From Synechococcus sp. MU1643 (GTDB lineage Bacteria > Cyanobacteriota > Cyanobacteriia > PCC-6307 > Cyanobiaceae), in contig NZ_VTKY01000005.1 of the NCBI RefSeq assembly GCF_020514095.1, forward strand, positions 1 through 64,000: a stretch of 64,000 nucleotides of DNA, given 5' to 3'. Each line of letters begins with the position of its first letter. Within the stretch, counting starts at the first letter, position 1. The notes under the pieces were generated by a model. That model ran no database searches and was not told the origin of the DNA. It was given only the letters and a program-made list of their open reading frames with translations. The translations under genes and the position numbers were made by a program. Below are positions 15,041 through 58,601 of the stretch, piece by piece.

Positions 15041-15197
15041 ATCGGTGAGGTGAATCAGTGCTTTGAACCATCGCGCTGAATCGCTGCGCTGAAGGCGTCG
15101 GTCCGGTCTGTAAAGTCGGTAATTCTCCGTGAAACGTCGGCGGGCGTTCCATGCGATTTTCTCGAACTACCCACCTGAGGTAGACCGCCAGCCCCCC

Positions 15198-20080: not shown

Positions 20081-20719
20081 GTGCATCGCGCGCTCCTGGC
20101 CTTTGCCCAAACACTGCTGATCGAGCCCCGCTGCCCGATCTGTGATGGCCCCTGGGACAGCCCACTGCGGCCGACGGCTACCTGCAGCAAGTGCCTCAAC
20201 GCACTGGCTCTCCCTCTGAAAGGGCTCAAGCTGCCATTGCCTTGGTGCGCCCTCGGGCCTTACGCAGGCACTCTGCGTCAACTGCTGCTCCAGGTGCGTC
20301 AGCCGCGCCAAGGGAAAGCGCTTGCGGCCTTGGTTCAGCTGCTATCGGACCGTTGGCCACTGCCCGCAACAGCAGTGCTGGTACCGATTCCAAGCTGGAA
20401 AAAGCAACGATCCAACCCCCTGCCACAGCAGATCGCCATGGGCTTGGGCCGACCGACGGCAGCCCTGCTGCACCGCACCCATGCAGGGCTAAGCCAACAC
20501 CATCTGAACAAAACCCAACGCCAGACCAACCTGATCGGGGCGTTCCAGGCCATCCCCTTGGACACACAAGGAACACTCGGCTCGGTCTGGCTCGGGGACG
20601 ACATCCTCACAACCGGATCCACCGCTTTAGCTGGCCATGAGGCCCTTGAAAATGCTGGCCACCACGTGGCTGGATTGATCTGCCTGGGACGAACCCCCGC
20701 AAAAGAGCGCAGGCGGTGA
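20081..20719 (+). CDS. comF: ComF-family phosphoribosyltransferase-like protein
   Basis: 212 residues from a GTG. The N-terminal zinc-finger-like part has CPICDGPWDSPLRP and CSKC. The C-terminal PRTase fold carries VWLGDDILTTGSTALAG, the PRPP-binding loop. ComF is needed for natural transformation in other bacteria. It is intact here while dprA at 9382-10461 is broken. It ends 30 bp before tRNA-Phe. Confidence 0.85.
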   Translation: MHRALLAFAQTLLIEPRCPICDGPWDSPLRPTATCSKCLNALALPLKGLKLPLPWCALGPYAGTLRQLLLQVRQPRQGKALAALVQLLSDRWPLPATAVLVPIPSWKKQRSNPLPQQIAMGLGRPTAALLHRTHAGLSQHHLNKTQRQTNLIGAFQAIPLDTQGTLGSVWLGDDILTTGSTALAGHEALENAGHHVAGLICLGRTPAKERRR

Positions 20720-20749
20720 TTTAAGATTCAAGTGTCGCTTCGGCGGCGC

Positions 20750-20822
20750 GCCGGGATAGCTCAGTTGGTAGAGCAGGCGACTGAAAATCGCCGTGTCCCC
20801 AGTTCAAATCTGGGTCCTGGCA
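20750..20822 (+). tRNA. tRNA-Phe (anticodon GAA), integration target
   Basis: 73 nt. The acceptor arms are GCCGGGA and TCCTGGC, the anticodon stem-loop is GGCGA-CTGAAAA-TCGCC giving GAA, and the T-arm is CCCAGTTCAAATCTGGG. Its 3' end is repeated exactly at 31491-31517, so it is the attachment site of the downstream element and has been rebuilt intact by integration. Confidence 0.97.
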
Positions 20823-20823
20823 T
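20797..20823 (+). repeat. attL: 27-bp direct repeat, tRNA-Phe 3' end
   Basis: The run CCCCAGTTCAAATC followed by TGGGTCCTGGCAT is identical at 31491-31517. It covers the T-arm and acceptor end of the tRNA, the usual crossover region for tyrosine recombinases. Confidence 0.93.
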
Positions 20824-20836
20824 TTCTCGAAAACGC

Positions 20837-20888
20837 CTAAAAAGGCACGTGAAAGCACCATATCTGGTGTTATTACGTGCCTTTTTAG
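20837..20888 (+). terminator. Long hairpin after tRNA-Phe
   Basis: CTAAAAAGGCACGT (20837-20850) and ACGTGCCTTTTTAG (20875-20888) are perfectly complementary over 14 bp. A second small stem (CACCA / TGGTG) sits in the loop. The T-run inside the right arm suggests transcription termination of tRNA-Phe. It lies inside the element, so it was brought in by it. Confidence 0.7.
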
Positions 20889-20920
20889 CGCTTCAAGCAC
20901 CTAATTGAATTTTGTCAAAA

Positions 20921-20946
20921 CGGTAGGGGAGCAGTAGGGGAGCACG
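20921..20946 (+). repeat. Tandem 11-bp repeats, candidate integrase arm sites (left)
   Basis: GGTAGGGGAGC is followed directly by AGTAGGGGAGC about 100 bp inside the left attachment repeat. A closely similar pair (GGTATGGGAGC, GGTATGGGAGC) lies about 85 bp inside the right repeat at 31385-31409. Paired repeats at this distance from both att cores are what arm-binding sites of tyrosine integrases look like. Assignment is inference. Confidence 0.55.
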
Positions 20947-20995
20947 CCCTTTCGCTCAGTCGGGGAAAGGTCCCCAGATTCCCCCTACCCACGAG

Positions 20996-21508
20996 AAAAA
21001 AAGACTCCTGAGGTATTCCCACCCTCAGGGGTCAGTCCCCTCGATTACTCGACCCATTCACCTTCCTCCAGGCGTGCTCCTGCGAGGAGTAGGGGATCCG
21101 ACACTTTTGGTAGTGCGTGCCGATCAGGTTCGGATGCCCGCAGGCAATAAAAAAGGCGGCAGGGAGTGCCGCCAGAAACAAGGGGACGAACGCGTCGAAA
21201 GCACTGGGGTTACCAGCGGCACCATCCTCTTCAGGCAGTCAGTGGTGTGGTGGGTGCCGTTTACGAACTGCCAAAAAAAAGGAGCGGTCCCACCCGCTCC
21301 CCTCATGACGCATCCATCCCCCCCTTACGAGGGATGAACAGATATTCGCGACGCAACAGACGCGCCGCCATCCGTAGAAGCGCCCATTGAGAAGGGGGGC
21401 AAGCGGCACCCCCCTAAAGGTCATTGAGACCTGGTTACTGCTTCAGCGGTCTCTGACCTCATTCCCGTTCTAAGGCGCTTCAGAGCACCAGGGCATGAGC
21501 GGAACTAC
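20996..21508 (-). ncRNA. Hairpin-rich non-coding array, copy A (candidate minus-strand small RNAs)
   Basis: Over 500 bp without a credible gene. Read on the minus strand it holds three hairpins each followed by a run of T: 20996-21032, 21147-21173 (stem GGCGGCA/TGCCGCC) and 21273-21300 (stem GGAGCGG/CCGCTCC). Most of the block is repeated in the same order at 21848-22492. The strongest match is 21366-21508 against 22347-22492, which differs at few positions outside one loop. Two-copy conservation plus terminators suggest short structured transcripts about 120-240 nt long. Confidence 0.5.
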
Positions 21509-21511
21509 TGC

Positions 21512-21757
21512 TTAGTTTCCGCCGTTGCAGAAGCGAACTGCTGCAGCGTTGGTCTTGCCCTCAGCGATGACCTCTTGAACGCAACCGTTAAATGCTTTGC
21601 TCTCCTGCTTCAAAGCGCAGAGACCAAGCGCGATTGCTGCCAAGGAGATGGCGGAAACGACGGTGGCGGAGATTTGGATGACTCCATAGGCGAGCATCGC
21701 TTTGTTCTTGCCGCCGCACTTGCTGGAGTTTTCCTTGCTGGCGTTCTCTTCTGTCAT
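21512..21757 (-). CDS. Small membrane protein between the two array copies
   Basis: 81 residues. A polar Lys/Glu/Asn-rich N-terminus (MTEENASKENSSKCGGKNK) precedes a hydrophobic stretch MLAYGVIQISATVVSAISLA and a soluble tail with two cysteines. One or two membrane helices are likely. I recognise no family. It lies between the duplicated non-coding blocks and is transcribed toward copy A. It may be the only protein gene of the repeated segment. Confidence 0.55.
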   Translation of the reverse strand: MTEENASKENSSKCGGKNKAMLAYGVIQISATVVSAISLAAIALGLCALKQESKAFNGCVQEVIAEGKTNAAAVRFCNGGN

Positions 21758-21847
21758 GGATAAGAAATGACTTGGAAAACGCTATGGACTCTGAATGTGC
21801 CTTGAAGACACATTGCTGATGGGATAACCGCCCTACTGGGGTCCTCA

Positions 21848-22492
21848 ATAAAAACCCCTGGAGTGCCCACACCCCAGGGGTCCCGTCCTCTCGTTCTGAC
21901 GCCCCATCACCTTCCTCCTGGCGTTCTCCCGTGTGGAGTAGGAGAACCGTCAAAACAGGTAGTGGCGACCGTTCCGTGTTCGGTTGCCCACAGGCAATAA
22001 AAAAGGCGGCAGGGAATGCCGCCAACGAAGGGAGGTAATGCGTCGAACCAAGGGAGTAGGTCTGTAGACAGCATCACCGCTCCAAAGGCAAAGGCGAGAG
22101 CACTCTTTACGAAACGGCAAAAAAAAGAGGGGTCCCACCCCCTCCCAGTTCGACGCATTGCCCCTTCATCGAAGAAGCAACTGAAGGATCACTCAGGGTT
22201 CACCTACTGGTCGTCGCCATTACGACCAAACGAATACTGGGGTCAACAACCCAAGAAAAAGCAGAGGTCCCACCCTCTGCCTGTGTTCGACGCATTGCAC
22301 CCTCTTACGGAGGGTTGACCTAATACTCGCTATCCAAGCCTTTGCCGCCATCCGTAGAAGCGCCCATTGAGAAGGGGGGCGTTGCGCCCCCCCTGAAGAT
22401 CCTTGAGACCTGGTTGTGTAGTTCCTATCGGTCTCTGACCTCATTCCCGTTCTAAGGCGCCTCAGAGCACCAGGGCATGAGCGGAACTGCTC
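21848..22492 (-). ncRNA. Hairpin-rich non-coding array, copy B
   Basis: Imperfect duplicate of 20996-21508. Minus-strand terminator-like hairpins are at 21848-21881 (ACCCCTGG/CCAGGGGT), 21997-22024 (GGCGGCA/TGCCGCC, as in copy A), 22119-22146 (GAGGGG/CCCCTC) and 22256-22281 (GCAGAGG/CCTCTGC). The loop TCCCAC, often in GGTCCCACCC, and a neighbouring GACGCAT recur next to several of them. The 145-bp part at 22347-22492 is nearly identical to copy A. Confidence 0.5.
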
Positions 22493-23143
22493 ACCCGTTT
22501 GTATCCCAAAGGCACAAAAAAAGGAGCGGTATCCCTATCGCTCCTTCGGAAACTGAAAGTGCCGCTGGGCGGGACGACGCCCAGCGATGACCACCATCAC
22601 CGATGAGGAGGGACTGCCGTGGGTGCCGTGAGCGTTTTCCAAGAAAAGACCCAGGAGTGTTTGACCTCCTGGATTCCTCGCTCTCATGCGATACGACAGT
22701 TCTAACGCCACCTAATAAGCATTTGTGCTTACGGGTTACCGAACCGCTGAGGCGTCCAGTGCTCGCATCTGAAGAAATGAGAGCGCCAGGCAGGAACTAT
22801 GTGCTGCCACACACGACAAATCCCATTGAAACCAGGTTCTCCCTGGAAGTTCTTGCAGTTGACGCACCTAGAAGGCATTCAAAGAGGGTGACGATCTTCC
22901 AACTGTCTAATTCCAGAGAAAGCAACTCGTCAGACGCTGCTTCAAGGTTCTTCAGCAGAAATGCCCCAGTCAGGCGTCTTCAGAGGTTTCCAACCCTGCC
23001 TCTAAAGATGCCTACCCATGAAGAAGGGCGGGAGTTACCCGCCCCTTGGCACCTAACCCCGTCCTAATGAAGTGCGATTCCGTAGGTGTCGTGTTCTCTT
23101 TTTAGGGATTCAGGGAAGGCACGCCATCCGCAGAAAGACCTGA
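22493..23143. other. Gene-poor tail of the array
   Basis: About 650 bp with no protein gene I can support. Three more hairpins oriented for minus-strand termination occur: 22515-22543 (AGGAGCG/CGCTCCT), 22651-22672 (CCAGGAG/CTCCTGG) and 23021-23046 (GGGCGGG/CCCGCCC). The one at 22651 resembles the first hairpins of copies A and B, suggesting a worn third copy. Confidence 0.5.
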
Positions 23144-23389
23144 TCAGGGTTCGGCAGTTGCGCCCCAAAGCGGTCTCGTCTTCTTCCACCCCTGCGTCTG
23201 AAGAGACCTCCACAACTGCTCTGCGGCGTCTTTCCTCAGATATCGACGCTCCTTGAGCAGCGGCGGACCTACGGGCATCTGACGCCCTCGATCGATAAAG
23301 ACCTTCGGATCTTTTACCCAGGCGGAGTTGTCCCGGTGAAACCGCCAGACCCAATGGTCATTGGCATCGATCAACCATCCCTCTTGCAT
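23144..23389 (-). CDS. DUF1651 family protein
   Basis: 81 residues starting MQEGWLIDANDHWVWRFHRD. The domain pattern is WxxRFH, then FIDRGRQMPVGPPLLKERR, then a final AEQLWRSLQTQGWKKTRPLW, typical of DUF1651, a family abundant in marine Synechococcus and Prochlorococcus islands. The ATG at 23389 is chosen because GGAGGTG lies 7 bases upstream. The start overlaps the stop of the cysteine-rich gene before it. Function unknown. Confidence 0.75.
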   Translation of the reverse strand: MQEGWLIDANDHWVWRFHRDNSAWVKDPKVFIDRGRQMPVGPPLLKERRYLRKDAAEQLWRSLQTQGWKKTRPLWGATAEP

Positions 23390-23619
23390 CACGCCACCTC
23401 CGGGCACCAACCCATTTCCGTCTCCCTGCGGACCATCCAGTTGCGGCACCTCTTCGTCAGGTGCTCGCCATGGGGAACCTGACGACGCTGAAGACCACAG
23501 GTCAGCAACGTGTGGCAGTGCTGGTCACAGACATAGGAGAAGTGCTGGCACGTCATGCAGACACATGAGGACCTGGTCTGCTTCAGACCATCCACAAAGT
23601 CCCATTCCTCTTCCGACAT
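23389..23619 (-). CDS. Cysteine/histidine-rich small protein, coupled to the DUF1651 gene
   Basis: 76 residues. An acidic start MSEEEWDFVDGLKQ is followed by CVCMTCQHFSYVCDQHCHTL, LLTCGLQRRQVPHGEHLTKRC and GWCPEVA. The spaced Cys and His residues look like a small zinc-binding fold. Its stop overlaps the DUF1651 ATG (TGATG), so the two are translated together. I believe similar paired genes occur in other marine picocyanobacteria, but no function is known to me. Confidence 0.65.
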   Translation of the reverse strand: MSEEEWDFVDGLKQTRSSCVCMTCQHFSYVCDQHCHTLLTCGLQRRQVPHGEHLTKRCRNWMVRRETEMGWCPEVA

Positions 23620-23758
23620 CGAACCCTCCTTGCGAGTAGTTCATACGTTCTACTCCTGGTTCGCAGGGATTGGTCAAGGGCGAAAACGGAAGAAAGTGCC
23701 GCGGGTGGCGCTGAACGATGAGCACGAACAAGATGAGTGCGGGCAAAGTCCAGTCGTC

Positions 23759-24541
23759 GTGCGAACTTTCCGAGAAACACTCTTCCACTCGCTGAACTCT
23801 GAGGGCGAGCAAGGGAGGGCGACGAACGCCGTCAAGGCGATAGGTCTGCTGATCGCCTTGTCAATCGGTTTGGCGGTCATCGCGACAGAACCTGTTGTCA
23901 GATCATCACTGGGAGATTTACTCGTAAAACTTGATATTGCGGTCGCAATCGTCTTCCTGATCGAATACATCTTGCGACTCTGGGTTGCTCCACTTAGGGA
24001 CGGAGCAAGAAGAGGCATTCGAGGTGCCTGGGACTACGCCATTACGCCTCTGGCAATCCTGGATCTAATAGCAATCGCTCCAACCATCCTTGGTTTTATT
24101 ACTCCGGAACTCTATTTGCTTAGGATTATTCGGTTGGCACGAATAGGAAGAGTCGGTCGCTCAAAGCGCTTTCGTCACAGCATCAGGTATTTCAATAAAG
24201 CAATCACCGCCAAGAAAGAAGCGCTTCAGATTTCCGCTATTTACTCGGGAGTTGTCATCACTATCAGCAGCATATTGATGTTCTTGGTTGAAGGAGGAGT
24301 CCAGAAGGAGCAGTTCGGTTCAATACCCAGATGCCTTTGGTGGTCTGTTGTTACGGTGACAACAGTTGGATATGGCGACACTTATCCCATAACAGCACTG
24401 GGGAAACTTGTGGCAGCATTGACTGCCATATGCGGGATCGCAGTTATCGCAATCCCAATCGGTATTATCTCGGCAGGTTTCACTGAGTCCCTTGGATCGG
24501 AGAACTCTAGAGAAGATCTTGAAGCGCCTGCAAAGCGTTAA
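23759..24541 (+). CDS. Voltage-gated-type potassium channel (6TM)
   Basis: About 260 residues from a GTG at 23759; the frame is open upstream to 23555, but that part looks non-coding. S1 is AIGLLIALSIGLAVIATEP. An S4-like helix carries regularly spaced Arg (LLRIIRLARIGRVGRSKRFR), and the pore reads CLWWSVVTVTTVGYGDTYP with the TVGYGD selectivity filter, then S6. It probably passes K+ across the plasma membrane. It is cargo of the tRNA-Phe element and its N-terminal start is uncertain. Confidence 0.85.
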   Translation: MRTFRETLFHSLNSEGEQGRATNAVKAIGLLIALSIGLAVIATEPVVRSSLGDLLVKLDIAVAIVFLIEYILRLWVAPLRDGARRGIRGAWDYAITPLAILDLIAIAPTILGFITPELYLLRIIRLARIGRVGRSKRFRHSIRYFNKAITAKKEALQISAIYSGVVITISSILMFLVEGGVQKEQFGSIPRCLWWSVVTVTTVGYGDTYPITALGKLVAALTAICGIAVIAIPIGIISAGFTESLGSENSREDLEAPAKR

Positions 24542-25794: not shown

Positions 25795-26370
25795 ATGGCG
25801 ATCTGGGGTTACTGGAGGACCAGCACCACCGAGCAGGACAGCGAACGGCAGCAGAAGTCGCTGAAGGAAGCAGGGTGCGATCGGATTTACGGGGACCAGA
25901 TCACTGGGACCTCCGCTTATGGAGATCGACCTGAACTGAGCAAGTGCCTGGATGGTCTCCGTGATGGCGACACCCTTGTGATCCACGAACTGGATCGTCT
26001 TGGGCGCTCAATGGTCGAAATGCTTGTTCAGGTCAATGGTCTGATCGAACGGGGAATTGCGATCAAGACCTTGGACGGACGCCTGGACACCGCCTCCATG
26101 CCTGAGGAGTTAGTCAAGTTGGTGGTGGGCGTGATGGGTTACGCCGCCGAGATGGAACTGAAGGGCATCAAGAAGCGCACTGCTGAAGGCAGAGAGGTCG
26201 CCAAGAACAGAGGAGTGAAGTTCGGCAGGAAGAGGAACTACACGCCACAACAGGCGGCAGCAGTGATGGAGATGCGGCAGCGGGGCGATGGATACGGAAC
26301 CATCGCTTCGGCAATGGGGATGACTGCCTCGATGGTTCGTCGGATCCTTCAGCAGCAGGAGGTGGCGTGA
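25795..26370 (+). CDS. Serine recombinase (resolvase/invertase family)
   Basis: 191 residues. The catalytic serine is Ser10 in WGYWRTSTTEQDSERQQ. It is followed by the resolvase core (GDTLVIHELDRLGRSMVEML, then RTAEGREVAKNRGVKFGRKR) and a C-terminal helix-turn-helix (YGTIASAMGMTASMVRRIL). The size is that of small resolvases and invertases, not of large serine integrases. It could resolve dimers, invert DNA or move the element. A decayed copy of its C-terminus lies at 27608-27714. Confidence 0.92.
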   Translation: MAIWGYWRTSTTEQDSERQQKSLKEAGCDRIYGDQITGTSAYGDRPELSKCLDGLRDGDTLVIHELDRLGRSMVEMLVQVNGLIERGIAIKTLDGRLDTASMPEELVKLVVGVMGYAAEMELKGIKKRTAEGREVAKNRGVKFGRKRNYTPQQAAAVMEMRQRGDGYGTIASAMGMTASMVRRILQQQEVA

Positions 26371-26684
26371 TGAGGACACTTCTCCTGTTGCTGCTTCTGC
26401 CTCTCATGCCTGCGAAGGCAGAGGAACGAGAGATCCAGTGCCCTGGTCTGACGACCTACGAAATGAGGTTCTGTGCCTTACAGAGTTGGGAACGGTCGAA
26501 CCAAGCACTGAAGGATCAACTACCCCAAGCGACCTTGGAGAAGTGGAAAGCAGCAACACAGGAGGTCTGTGCCGCTGCCTATGCCCCATACCGACAAGGG
26601 ACGATCTATCCCCAGATGGTTGTCGGATGCGATGACCGCCTGAACCGAGTTCTATTGGAAGAACTCAAGGGTCTTGGCGGATGA
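26370..26684 (+). CDS. Small exported protein, LprI/DUF1311-like
   Basis: 104 residues from an ATG overlapping the recombinase stop. GGAGG lies just upstream. A signal peptide MRTLLLLLLLPLMPAKAEE with an AKA cleavage site is followed by a short mature domain with four cysteines (IQCPGLTTYEMRFCALQSWE ... EVCAAAY ... VVGCDDRLNR). The Cys pattern and the YEMRFCA motif resemble DUF1311/LprI-type periplasmic proteins (weak match). Probably periplasmic. Confidence 0.65.
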   Translation: MRTLLLLLLLPLMPAKAEEREIQCPGLTTYEMRFCALQSWERSNQALKDQLPQATLEKWKAATQEVCAAAYAPYRQGTIYPQMVVGCDDRLNRVLLEELKGLGG

Positions 26685-27607: not shown

Positions 27608-27714
27608 AGCAGTTATGGAGATACGCAAGAGAGGAGGTGGATACGGAAAAATCGCATCGGCGATGGGGATGACAACATCGATGGTTCGTCGGATCATTTA
27701 GCAACAGGTGAAGG
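27608..27714 (+). pseudogene. Remnant of a serine recombinase C-terminus
   Basis: The frame reads VAVMEIRKRGGGYGKIASAM then GMTTSMVRRII, a stop, then QQ. This matches the last part of the recombinase at 25795-26370 (VMEMRQRGDGYGTIASAMGM, TASMVRRILQQQ). Only the helix-turn-helix end survives. It marks an old duplication or deletion inside the element. Confidence 0.75.
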
Positions 27715-27718
27715 TGCC

Positions 27719-27886
27719 GTGCTGAGAGTTCTGCTGGGTATTGCCATTGGCGTCTTCATCTACGCCAACCCAGAGGCAAGACAGATCACTGCTGATCTAC
27801 TCAGAGCAACAGGAGACGCGCTTGCCCCCGCCTTGGAGGAGAAAACGCTCGAAGATCGAATCAACGAAGTCTTGGTAGGCGACTGA
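27719..27886 (+). CDS. Small hypothetical protein with hydrophobic N-terminus
   Basis: 55 codons from a GTG: VLRVLLGIAIGVFIYANPEA, then RQITADLLRATGDALAPALE, ending NEVLVGD. An N-terminal membrane helix is followed by an amphipathic helix. It sits right behind the recombinase remnant, as exported proteins sit behind the intact recombinase, and 4 bp before the next small gene. Confidence 0.55.
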   Translation: MLRVLLGIAIGVFIYANPEARQITADLLRATGDALAPALEEKTLEDRINEVLVGD

Positions 27887-29896: not shown

Positions 29897-31324
29897 TTAA
29901 TTCTTCGCTCTGCTTATTAGTGACCACTTCCCTGGAGTGATTGCTGCCCGCGCCTTTGCTGCTGTCTTCTCACGCTGGATAAAGCGCAAATAACGCTCCT
30001 CCAGCATCTTTGGCGAAGTATGACCGTTGTCCGCAAAATCCCGGATGTATTGCGTGGTCCAGAGTTCTGGGTAGTCCTCCAAGGTCAAGCGGAACGCGGT
30101 ATGGCGACAGGTGGTCCAATCGATCCCTTTGGTCGAGATTCCTGCCTTCTCACACGCCTTCTTGAGAAGGAAGTTGATTGTCTCTCCAACGTTGCTCTCG
30201 TTTTCGCTGCCTTCCGTTCTCTTGATGTGGGGAAAGTTCAACCACCCCTGTGGTTTCCTCTTGAGAATGCGGCGGACGTTCTCCAACGCATCTGGTCGGT
30301 AGGCATAGGTGTCGTGCTTATCCCTGTCGCCCTTCGTTTTCTCAAGGAAACAGATGACTTGTGGTTCTCCCGCATCGGTCAGTTGCTCGCTAAACCATTC
30401 ACTTCTCAACCGAGGAGCATCCTCACTTCGGAGGTAATAGAACCACTCCATGTGGAGCGCGTCATACAAATCAACCCAGTTGCGTGAGTTCTGACGGTTC
30501 GTCGGGGTCCAAGGCAGTTCCCGGTATTCCTCCGCCGTCAGGGACTGGCGAGCAGAACCACCAGATAGTTCGGAGGCAATGCGAACCAATTGCTCCCACT
30601 CCTGATGGGTGAAGTGCCTCTTCTGACGCACGCTCTTTTTTATCGCCGGAAACTCAGGGCAGGACAGAGCGGGGAAATCTGCCTTCGCCTCTTTGAACAG
30701 GTTGCGGATAAGGGTCTTGTATTGCCTTCTGGTCTCTTCTCCTGAATTGCCCTTCGCTTCACAGTTCTCCCTGATGAGACGGAAGAACTCCAAAAAGTCG
30801 TTGCTCGTGATCGCCTGAATGCTTTTGACAGTCGCCCAGGGTTGAACGCCGATGCCTGTGGTCCCGTTCCAAAGATTCCGCTTGTCGCTCAACCAACGAC
30901 TTCGGTTGTTCCGTAGTTCCAGTTCCGCCTTGGCATACCAACGCTCCCAATAGACCGAAAGAGCGTGTTGCTTCTCCACTTCCCGCACTTGGGACTGTGA
31001 GAGGAGGTCCTGCCACTTCTTTTGAGAGGCAGCAACCGCGACCTTTGCTGCTTCCCAGGGGTCGGTGGTCCCGCAAGTCCCTTCTATATAGATGCGCTTT
31101 CCCCGCCCCCGATTGGTTTTGCCAGCAAACGGACGAGGGTCATCTGCTTTCTCCGGCAGGAAGCGCCACTGGAGGTTCTTGGTCTTTCTGCTGTTCGCGC
31201 TGGGGTTCTGACGGACGACCGATAGAGAGGTGTGGGGGATGTTCCCTTTGCCCCCCAAGTCGCGCACCACGTTGAGGGTGTGAAGGGTGCCGTCTATCCA
31301 TCCCTGTGGCAGCGACCGTCCCAT
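29897..31324 (-). CDS. Tyrosine recombinase (integrase) of the element
   Basis: 475 residues. Catalytic residues visible in order: Arg in YYLRSEDAPRLRSEWF, His-x-x-Arg in TCRHTAFRLTLEDYP, and the nucleophile Tyr in GHTSPKMLEERYLRFIQRE. The N-terminal part (about 1-160) includes an arm-binding-like basic region and a SAM-like core-binding domain. It starts about 170 bp from the right attachment repeat and reads inward. It is the obvious enzyme for insertion in tRNA-Phe. No frame damage is seen. Confidence 0.92.
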   Translation of the reverse strand: MGRSLPQGWIDGTLHTLNVVRDLGGKGNIPHTSLSVVRQNPSANSRKTKNLQWRFLPEKADDPRPFAGKTNRGRGKRIYIEGTCGTTDPWEAAKVAVAASQKKWQDLLSQSQVREVEKQHALSVYWERWYAKAELELRNNRSRWLSDKRNLWNGTTGIGVQPWATVKSIQAITSNDFLEFFRLIRENCEAKGNSGEETRRQYKTLIRNLFKEAKADFPALSCPEFPAIKKSVRQKRHFTHQEWEQLVRIASELSGGSARQSLTAEEYRELPWTPTNRQNSRNWVDLYDALHMEWFYYLRSEDAPRLRSEWFSEQLTDAGEPQVICFLEKTKGDRDKHDTYAYRPDALENVRRILKRKPQGWLNFPHIKRTEGSENESNVGETINFLLKKACEKAGISTKGIDWTTCRHTAFRLTLEDYPELWTTQYIRDFADNGHTSPKMLEERYLRFIQREKTAAKARAAITPGKWSLISRAKN

Positions 31325-31409: not shown

Positions 31410-31490
31410 CCCGCAAAACTGTCCAAATAGGGCATTTTTGTATCGTCGCTATACAGATTGAGCGCTTGAAGGGGCAAATTGTCGCAACGC

Positions 31491-31517
31491 CCCCAGTTCA
31501 AATCTGGGTCCTGGCAT
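31491..31517 (+). repeat. attR: 27-bp copy of the tRNA-Phe 3' end
   Basis: Identical to 20797-20823. The anticodon and D arms are absent, so it is a tRNA remnant and not a functional gene. It marks the right boundary of the element. Confidence 0.93.
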
Positions 31518-43444: not shown

Positions 43445-44047
<603 letters not shown>

Positions 44048-54647: not shown

Positions 54648-55512
<865 letters not shown>

Positions 55513-58082: not shown

Positions 58083-58601
58083 ATGTTCGACGCCTTCACC
58101 AAGGTTGTCGCCCAGGCCGATGCCCGGGGACAATTCATCAGCACCAGCGAGATCGACGCCCTCGCTGCCATGGTTTCCGACAGCAACAAGCGTCTGGATG
58201 CCGTTAACCGCATCTCCAGCAACGCCTCCAGCATCGTTGCTTCGGCCGCTCGTCAGCTGTTTGCCCAACAGCCTTCTTTGATTTCCCCTGGCGGTAACGC
58301 TTACACCTCCCGTCGGATGGCTGCTTGCCTGCGCGACATGGAAATCATCCTGCGTTACGTCACCTACTCCGCTTTCACAGGTGATTCTTCCGTGATGGAA
58401 GACCGCTGCCTGAATGGCCTGCGCGAGACCTACTTGGCCCTTGGCACTCCCGGTGCTTCGGTTGCTGCTGGAGTCAACCTGATGAAGGAAACCGCTCTGG
58501 CACTCGTCAACGACAAAGCTGGCATCTCAGCTGGTGACTGCGCCTCCCTGAGCAGCGAAATCGGCACCTACTTCGACAAAGCCGCAGCTTCCGTCGCCTG
58601 A
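58083..58601 (+). CDS. rpcB: R-phycocyanin beta subunit
   Basis: 172 residues starting [20 protein letters not shown]. Bilin cysteines at Cys82 (MAACLRDME) and Cys153 (AGDCASL). It is followed 37 bp later by rpcA. The name rpc (R-phycocyanin) is used because separate rpcE/rpcF genes follow. It sits in the rod hexamer next to the allophycocyanin core. Confidence 0.96.

Follow-up and report, generated by a model that had tools for sequence, protein, structure and literature searches.

An array of predicted small RNAs and putative complementary decoys on a tRNA-Phe-bounded mobile element of Synechococcus sp. MU1643

The window, a 64,000-nt stretch of DNA from Synechococcus sp. MU1643, contains an element of about 10.7 kb that is bounded by a repeat of the 3' end of tRNA-Phe and that carries a dense array of hairpins at its tRNA-proximal end (Table 1). 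The boundary repeat and an integrase-like gene at the far end, which matches a PHROG integrase family and no Pfam family at a threshold of 0.1, support the proposal of the initial annotation that the array belongs to a mobile element and sits at its tRNA-proximal end. Resolvase, ion-channel, and DUF1651 genes lie between the array and the integrase-like gene. The DUF1651 gene (23144-23449, minus strand) is located upstream of the array, and homologues are present in many array-bearing stretches (L059, L061, L063, L064, L067, L072, L073, and L075). The element also contains a 129-nt direct repeat (26259-26387 and 27608-27736, 77% identical). Inside the array lies a small gene for a protein of 81 amino acids, in which we recognized one long hydrophobic stretch by reading and for which Pfam and NCBIfam gave no family match; in this genome and in many related ones it occurs both as an array copy and at a separate place (L005:13781-14011). 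The element adjoins the phycobilisome rod gene cluster (33000-61000) with its phycoerythrin and phycocyanin subunit genes, which are the predicted targets of the RNAs described below. A cyanobacterial ribosomal protein S1 leader RNA (RF03151) is found at 15106-15191 on the plus strand.

Among 20 array stretches scanned elsewhere, four arrays are located by tRNA-Phe, and three of these four stretches contain integrase homologues. One array lies 72 nt from tRNA-Ser and one about 200 nt from tRNA-Cys; in two stretches a tRNA is several kb distant, and the remaining twelve contain no tRNA. A phage origin was rejected, as no similar DNA was found in a phage collection of 50,697 records; a search of viral contigs for one seed-terminator pattern gave zero exact matches. 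On the basis of sequence only, an interpretation as integron attC-like sites or as transposon ends was likewise weighed and set aside.

On the minus strand of positions 20990-22700, eight of eight T-runs of at least five nucleotides are placed directly 3' of a hairpin (-9.3 to -20.8 kcal/mol), compared to no such T-run on the plus strand and a mean of 0.3 (maximum 2) in 40 mononucleotide shuffles. A ninth hairpin (22674-22649, tail CTTTTCTTGG) has a broken T-run and was detected in a looser terminator scan. Over 20700-24000, this looser scan returned 13 terminator-like sites, a count that includes overlapping versions of one hairpin, with 12 of them on the minus strand (shuffles, 3.3 ± 1.8). 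The block 20996-21508 recurs as 21848-22492 with 421 of 495 aligned bases identical in 663 alignment columns, so that the alignment contains large gaps. The shared pieces appear in the same order in both, and within the 145-bp segment (21366-21508 and 22347-22492) 129 of 139 aligned bases are identical. The loop GTGGGA (minus strand) is common to three hairpins (22282, 22146, and 21295), where it lies beside a GACGCAT motif. The minus-strand terminator array, the block duplication with unchanged hairpin order, and the shared loop, all of which had been described before, were thus recovered.

Table 1 Features of the element and of the predicted target genes (positions refer to the window).
Feature	Position	Strand	Basis or remark
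tRNA-Phe 3' end, one boundary repeat	20788..20823	+	89% over 36 nt with 31482-31517
e unit of block 2, strong terminator at end	20997..21159	-	profile match
d-type unit 2 (putative decoy), terminator behind anti-seed UUCGACGCGUUCGUCCCC	21149..21230	-	d model, E 1.2e-27 in own genome; duplex energies
Seed-type unit of second copy (b'), seed AUGCGUCAUG	21275..21339	-	covariance model, 52.5 bits
81-aa small gene inside array	21512..21757	-	homologue elsewhere in own genome
e unit of block 1, strong terminator at end	21846..22009	-	profile match
d-type unit 1 (putative decoy), terminator behind anti-seed GGUUCGACGCAUUACC	21999..22083	-	d model, E 2.7e-16 in own genome; duplex energies
c-type sRNA of unit 1, predicted 60-nt RNA (5' hairpin, unpaired AAUGCGUCGAAC, terminator)	22119..22178	-	covariance model, 22120-22184, E 2.9e-21 in own genome
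Putative activator box GTC-GTAATGGC-GAC upstream of c-type RNA	22213..22226	-	the same 14-bp pattern precedes most c-type copies, both standalone and in arrays
Second seed-type unit of block (b)	22256..22321	-	covariance model, 42.6 bits
a unit upstream of block 1	22500..22697	-	matches in other genus genomes (query 4-201)
Integrase-like gene, far end of element	29897..31324	-	PHROG integrase family, E 3.9e-8
Other boundary repeat	31482..31517	+	copy of tRNA-Phe 3' end
Predicted target site TCGACGCAT	43515..43523	+	codons 2-5 of phycoerythrin beta gene cpeB (43511-44047)
Predicted target site TCGACGCAT	55190..55198	-	codons 2-5 of second phycoerythrin beta gene (54648-55202)
Phycocyanin beta gene	58083..58601	+	8-nt match UUCGACGC at the start; ranked first among targets of unit b

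The array comprises three units of a family that we refer to as c-type. Its members share a layout of a 5' hairpin, an unpaired AUGCGUCGA, and a terminator, with a predicted length of about 56-70 nt, so that the sRNA-like unit, at about 60 nt, is much shorter than the 120-240 nt assumed in the initial annotation. From a set of 65 units, 31 c-type units were aligned as hairpin, ATGCGTC, and terminator; because units had been chosen by a motif pattern, the invariance of ATGCGTC in this alignment is partly due to selection. The terminator stem shows compensatory changes in five of its six pairs. Rfam 15 at gathering scores matched nothing over the units in the window and no unit at the 20 other loci, where the only matches, window included, were tRNA, cyano-S1, and Glutamine-II; in a permissive Rfam scan of 20740-23820, matches within the array stayed far below gathering scores. 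No description of the c-type family was found in the open-licence literature, as covered by titles and the openings of abstracts. Within the searches made, the family therefore looks new. The sequence supports the proposal of a small-RNA family whose paralogues each have a terminator and which lacks an Rfam match. Unlike in that proposal, the array is a mixture of seed RNAs and units that carry the complement of the seed.

With the covariance model, 109 of 300 family genomes gave a match at an E-value of 0.01 or better. Best E-values below 1e-7 were restricted to three genera, namely that of the window, g34, and g24. Chance may account for many of the weaker matches. Among the genomes listed, 23 of the window's genus match and one (G029) does not, the list covering all but 171 genomes, which have no match. 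At the same cutoff, the own genome has 12 matches, G002 and G004 have 14 each, and G028 has 15. Judged from these sequences, the c-type family is genome-wide with many copies outside islands, a good part of them behind NtcA-type boxes. The earlier view of a small-RNA family at island ends is hence supported regarding the family, but not regarding its restriction to islands.

DNA similar to the array is present at three other places in the own genome, of which one is the small gene and two are RNA units, and DNA matching the array occurs in 21 of the 34 genus genomes, in some of them solely via the small gene. The matches are modular, with seed-type (b, c), anti-seed (d), e, and a units in varied combinations. 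A standalone c-d-e unit, whole or partial, is located 9-12 kb from a homologue of the 81-amino-acid gene in six genomes, and because of this proximity the small gene and the RNA unit seem to have entered the island from a single chromosomal region. One c-type unit (L161:1024-1094) was detected on a contig labelled as a Crocinitomicaceae MAG, which is probably a misassigned Synechococcus contig. In two genomes, an S1-type sRNA adjoins an open reading frame that, from reading the protein alone, we take to be a putative agmatinase of the SpeB type (L217:1-663 and L225:1-492). Glutamine-II riboswitches were observed about 0.5 and 0.9 kb from c-type sRNAs (L006:4709-4781, minus strand, with the sRNA at L006:4181-4247, and L199:2426-2484, plus strand, with the sRNA at L199:1501-1565), which provides another nitrogen-linked neighbour.

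The promoter position was inspected at 53 c-type loci, mostly outside arrays. We found 18 matches to the perfect NtcA box GTA-N8-TAC, compared to 0-1 in ten control windows and a mean of 0.58 (maximum 4) in shuffles. The relaxed box GT[AG]-N8-TAC gave 32 matches, again with 0-1 in the control windows. These counts are not independent, since the 53 loci include orthologues. These were kept, whereas the weak second match in L161 and several loci that duplicated a site were excluded. In 19 of the 53 loci, no box was recognized by the patterns used. Perfect boxes occur in several promoters that are otherwise unlike each other, for example GTATCAACACTTAC, which belongs to a chromosomal copy, GTAATTGTTACTAC, GTACTCATCCCTAC, and GTATCCATACCTAC. 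According to published descriptions, the box of NtcA-activated promoters is centred at -41.5 (PMC6316151, PMC8136909). With this spacing, the start predicted at 34 of 34 loci with the box or a close variant is no more than 3 nt away from the 5' hairpin, and the resulting RNAs are 56-70 nt long. The agreement of start and hairpin is not built in, because the covariance model has no pairs in the 5' hairpin. The putative NtcA link of the chromosomal copies is thus well supported by these sequence data. At the box position of array and standalone c-units, we mostly found GTC-GTNATGGC-GAC, which is not the NtcA consensus. The box of the array is GTCGTNATGGCGAC, and from the GTC-N8-GAC box of the window a 60-nt RNA (22178-22119) is predicted.

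A candidate target of the exposed seed was found in the adjoining rod gene cluster. The two genes with the site at codons 2-5 were identified as phycoerythrin beta genes by NCBIfam, and by our own reading the second of them is mpeB. In the own genome, TCGACGCAT occurs at nine sites, four in these RNAs, two at the phycoerythrin beta starts, and three elsewhere; it is not enriched elsewhere, with five sites outside these RNAs vs ten for a backwards control. A search of six genomes recovered the start sites of cpeB and mpeB in all six, which account for 12 of 95 matches (backwards control, 51). When phycoerythrin beta genes were instead collected by a protein motif in six genomes, three of them additional, 12 of 12 had the site, so that overall nine genomes carry the seed complement at codons 2-5 in each of the two genes. 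Given the amino acids and the codon usage, the exact codons CTC GAC GCA have a chance of about 1.5% per gene. In ten phycoerythrin beta genes from five genomes, one per near-identical group available, 101 codons could be compared. Sixteen of these do not vary, and the longest run without variation is codons 2-4. Taken singly, cpeB or mpeB contain other invariant runs that equal or exceed the start in length, and in rpcB codons 2-7 do not vary either. As the site also encodes the conserved peptide LDAF, a general constraint on gene starts could explain its conservation.

The predicted pairing extends to a second block, in which GGGG upstream of the seed faces CUCCC in the mRNA. We ranked 435 gene starts by pairing with the unpaired segments of the RNAs, since duplex scores of the full-length sRNAs were uninformative. 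This ranking excluded three open reading frames of the array. It included cpeB as a manual addition, since this gene had been displaced by an overlapping open reading frame of greater length. The two phycoerythrin beta genes rank between 1 and 11 for the segments of S1, c, b2, S5, and S2. For unit b, rpcB is ranked first and the two phycoerythrin beta genes 16 and 17, and for c_L006, c_L005, and S4 the latter are not favoured (ranks 60-167). From these sequence comparisons, we predict that c-type RNAs target phycoerythrin beta mRNAs. In strain WH7803, cpeB and cpeA transcripts and the pigment are described as lowered, by about 16%, upon nitrogen starvation (PMC9430850), a response that fits the idea of phycoerythrin repression without testing it.

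The d-units carry a terminator behind the anti-seed, whose commonest form, UUCGACGC(A/G)UUCGUCCCC, is near the phycoerythrin start CUCGACGCAUUCUCCCG. There are several d subtypes that have little in common beyond anti-seed and terminator. The d model gave 36 matches in 16 of 34 genus genomes. The anti-seed is present in 26 distinct d-units, 22 of which were included in the d analysis; three further rows lack it by the pattern used, one of them being partial. Of 20 d loci inspected, 16 are preceded by a c-type unit whose end is about 45 nt away. Six of eight own-genome pairings of seed RNAs with d-units are predicted to be stronger than the duplex with cpeB or mpeB, the exceptions being b2 with d1 and S1 with d2, which are weaker than with cpeB. 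Seed and anti-seed are conserved in sequence, and inspection by eye revealed no compensatory changes between them. The covariation that the initial annotation had put forward as a test is therefore found within the terminator stem but not between these two elements. A promoter of the d-units was not recognized, and in the standalone copy of the own genome the anti-seed is lost. Because of these three observations, d could also be part of a longer c-d transcript. Overall, we predict from sequence and duplex energies that the d-units are probably decoys for the seed RNAs.

Our best explanation, to which we assign a probability of about one half, is that the c-type RNAs are nitrogen-stress sRNAs that would repress phycoerythrin, and that the array consists of element-borne copies of them together with decoys. 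Marine Synechococcus would have a trans-acting sRNA family with multiple copies, of which the array would represent those on a mobile element, accompanied by complementary decoy RNAs. Each c-type RNA would expose its AUGCGUCGA seed between a 5' hairpin and an intrinsic terminator, and should accumulate in nitrogen shortage because many chromosomal copies lie behind NtcA-type promoters. By pairing of the seed with codons 2-5 of the cpeB and mpeB mRNAs, and in some copies also with rpcB, translation would be blocked and nitrogen spared from the antenna. The d-units would titrate the seed RNAs because they have the same layout with a near copy of the target site. The element would thereby bring in an extra dose of the regulator along with its decoy, possibly to its own benefit.

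Several parts of this proposal resemble known systems. NsiR4, an NtcA-activated sRNA of other cyanobacteria, is likewise short, has its NtcA box centred at -41.5, and acts post-transcriptionally in nitrogen economy; compared by its description only, it differs from the c-type RNAs in being reported as absent from alpha-cyanobacteria and in targeting gifA (PMC6316151), and a further target described for it is pirA (PMC9196836). ApcZ and PsrR1 are described as cyanobacterial sRNAs that act on photosynthetic genes, and ApcZ is stated to accumulate at nitrogen starvation and to have a putative NtcA site at -41.5; by the same description they are set apart from the c-type as other RNAs with other targets, ApcZ acting on ocp (PMC8136909). 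Yfr1 and Yfr2 are presented as two sRNAs with nearly complementary motifs, one of which interferes with the other (PMC6778093). In contrast to these, the seed and anti-seed units found here adjoin each other in repeated arrays. The motifs of Yfr1 and Yfr2 also differ from those of c and d. The anti-sRNAs AgvB and AsxR of E. coli prophages are described as element-borne decoys acting on core-genome sRNAs (PMC7873438), as we propose for d. They concern another organism and other RNAs, however, and here the element brings the regulator too, with decoy action being predicted. The layout and promoter may thus be compared to NsiR4, the seed and anti-seed to Yfr1/Yfr2, and the element-borne decoys to AgvB/AsxR, and membership in none of these is claimed. 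Cyano-2 RNA (RF01702) is multi-copy in the same genus, like the c-type, but is a separate family with a different structure and no match to the array; Cyano-1 and Cyano-2, both present in the genus, were accordingly rejected as identities. Cyano-2 matches (loci L173-L180; G002, G004, G000, and G008) number six in G002 and seven in G004, and one of those in G008 lies about 1 kb from an array.

A different target would leave much of the above in place. The c-type RNAs could be nitrogen-controlled sRNAs that mainly act on other mRNAs, with the phycoerythrin match being a by-product of a conserved coding motif, the array a family expansion, and the pairing of d serving another purpose. We regard this as rather unlikely, although what was found for promoter and family does not depend on the target, several segments pair better with the starts of other genes, the site encodes a conserved peptide, and other gene stretches are just as invariant. 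What speaks for phycoerythrin instead is that the exact CTC GAC GCA, at its low chance per gene, is found in both genes in nine genomes and that the pairing continues into the second block. It is still less likely, in our view, that c and d form one longer RNA, in which the c hairpin is read through, seed and anti-seed pair intramolecularly over about 100 nt, and the inner T-runs are not all terminators. The frequent position of a c-type end just upstream of d, the inverted repeats that seed and anti-seed form in the window, and the unrecognized d promoter would agree with such a transcript. On the other hand, box, hairpin, and terminator are found together in many solitary c-type copies, the c hairpin followed by eight T is a canonical terminator, and compensatory changes between seed and anti-seed are absent.

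The same inverted repeats, AAUGCGUCGAAC and its complement about 100 nt apart, together with the spread of modular pieces over islands, could also indicate that the repeats act as DNA, for example as ends of a small mobile unit or as protein-binding inverted repeats of the element, and not mainly as RNA genes. Since single-motif copies without a second repeat keep box, hairpin, and terminator at fixed distances and the terminator pairing is conserved, we consider this highly improbable. A membership of the units in the known abundant RNA Yfr103 appears just as improbable. Yfr103 is likewise described as a multi-copy structured RNA of marine Synechococcus, with seven paralogues of 290-328 nt in CC9605 (PMC5069720), and was the first candidate identity; judged by this description only, it was set aside on length, as 56-70 nt are predicted here, and on distribution, as in our searches d occurs in 16 of 34 genus genomes and the standalone c-d-e unit within the genus only, whereas Yfr103 is reported for RCC307 and Prochlorococcus MIT9313. 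Being multi-copy, Cyano-2 is a possible identity for Yfr103.

Taking the repression of phycoerythrin by nitrogen-stress sRNAs as the preferred reading, we tentatively extend it as follows. Marine Synechococcus may possess its own multi-copy, NtcA-driven sRNA family that turns off phycoerythrin synthesis by masking codons 2-5 of cpeB and mpeB, as a counterpart of NsiR4, which is reported to be missing there, and tRNA-integrated elements may have captured and amplified this family together with decoys that mimic the phycoerythrin start, thereby tuning the pigment response of the host to nitrogen shortage. Marine Synechococcus invests much of its nitrogen in phycoerythrin, and the passages of a published account that deal with the decrease of this pigment at nitrogen starvation name no mechanism (PMC9430850). 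Promoter box, exposed seed, and conserved target site agree with each other and lead to a directly testable question. If the proposal is true, an element that carries copies of a host sRNA as well as their decoys would represent an unusual route to host metabolism.
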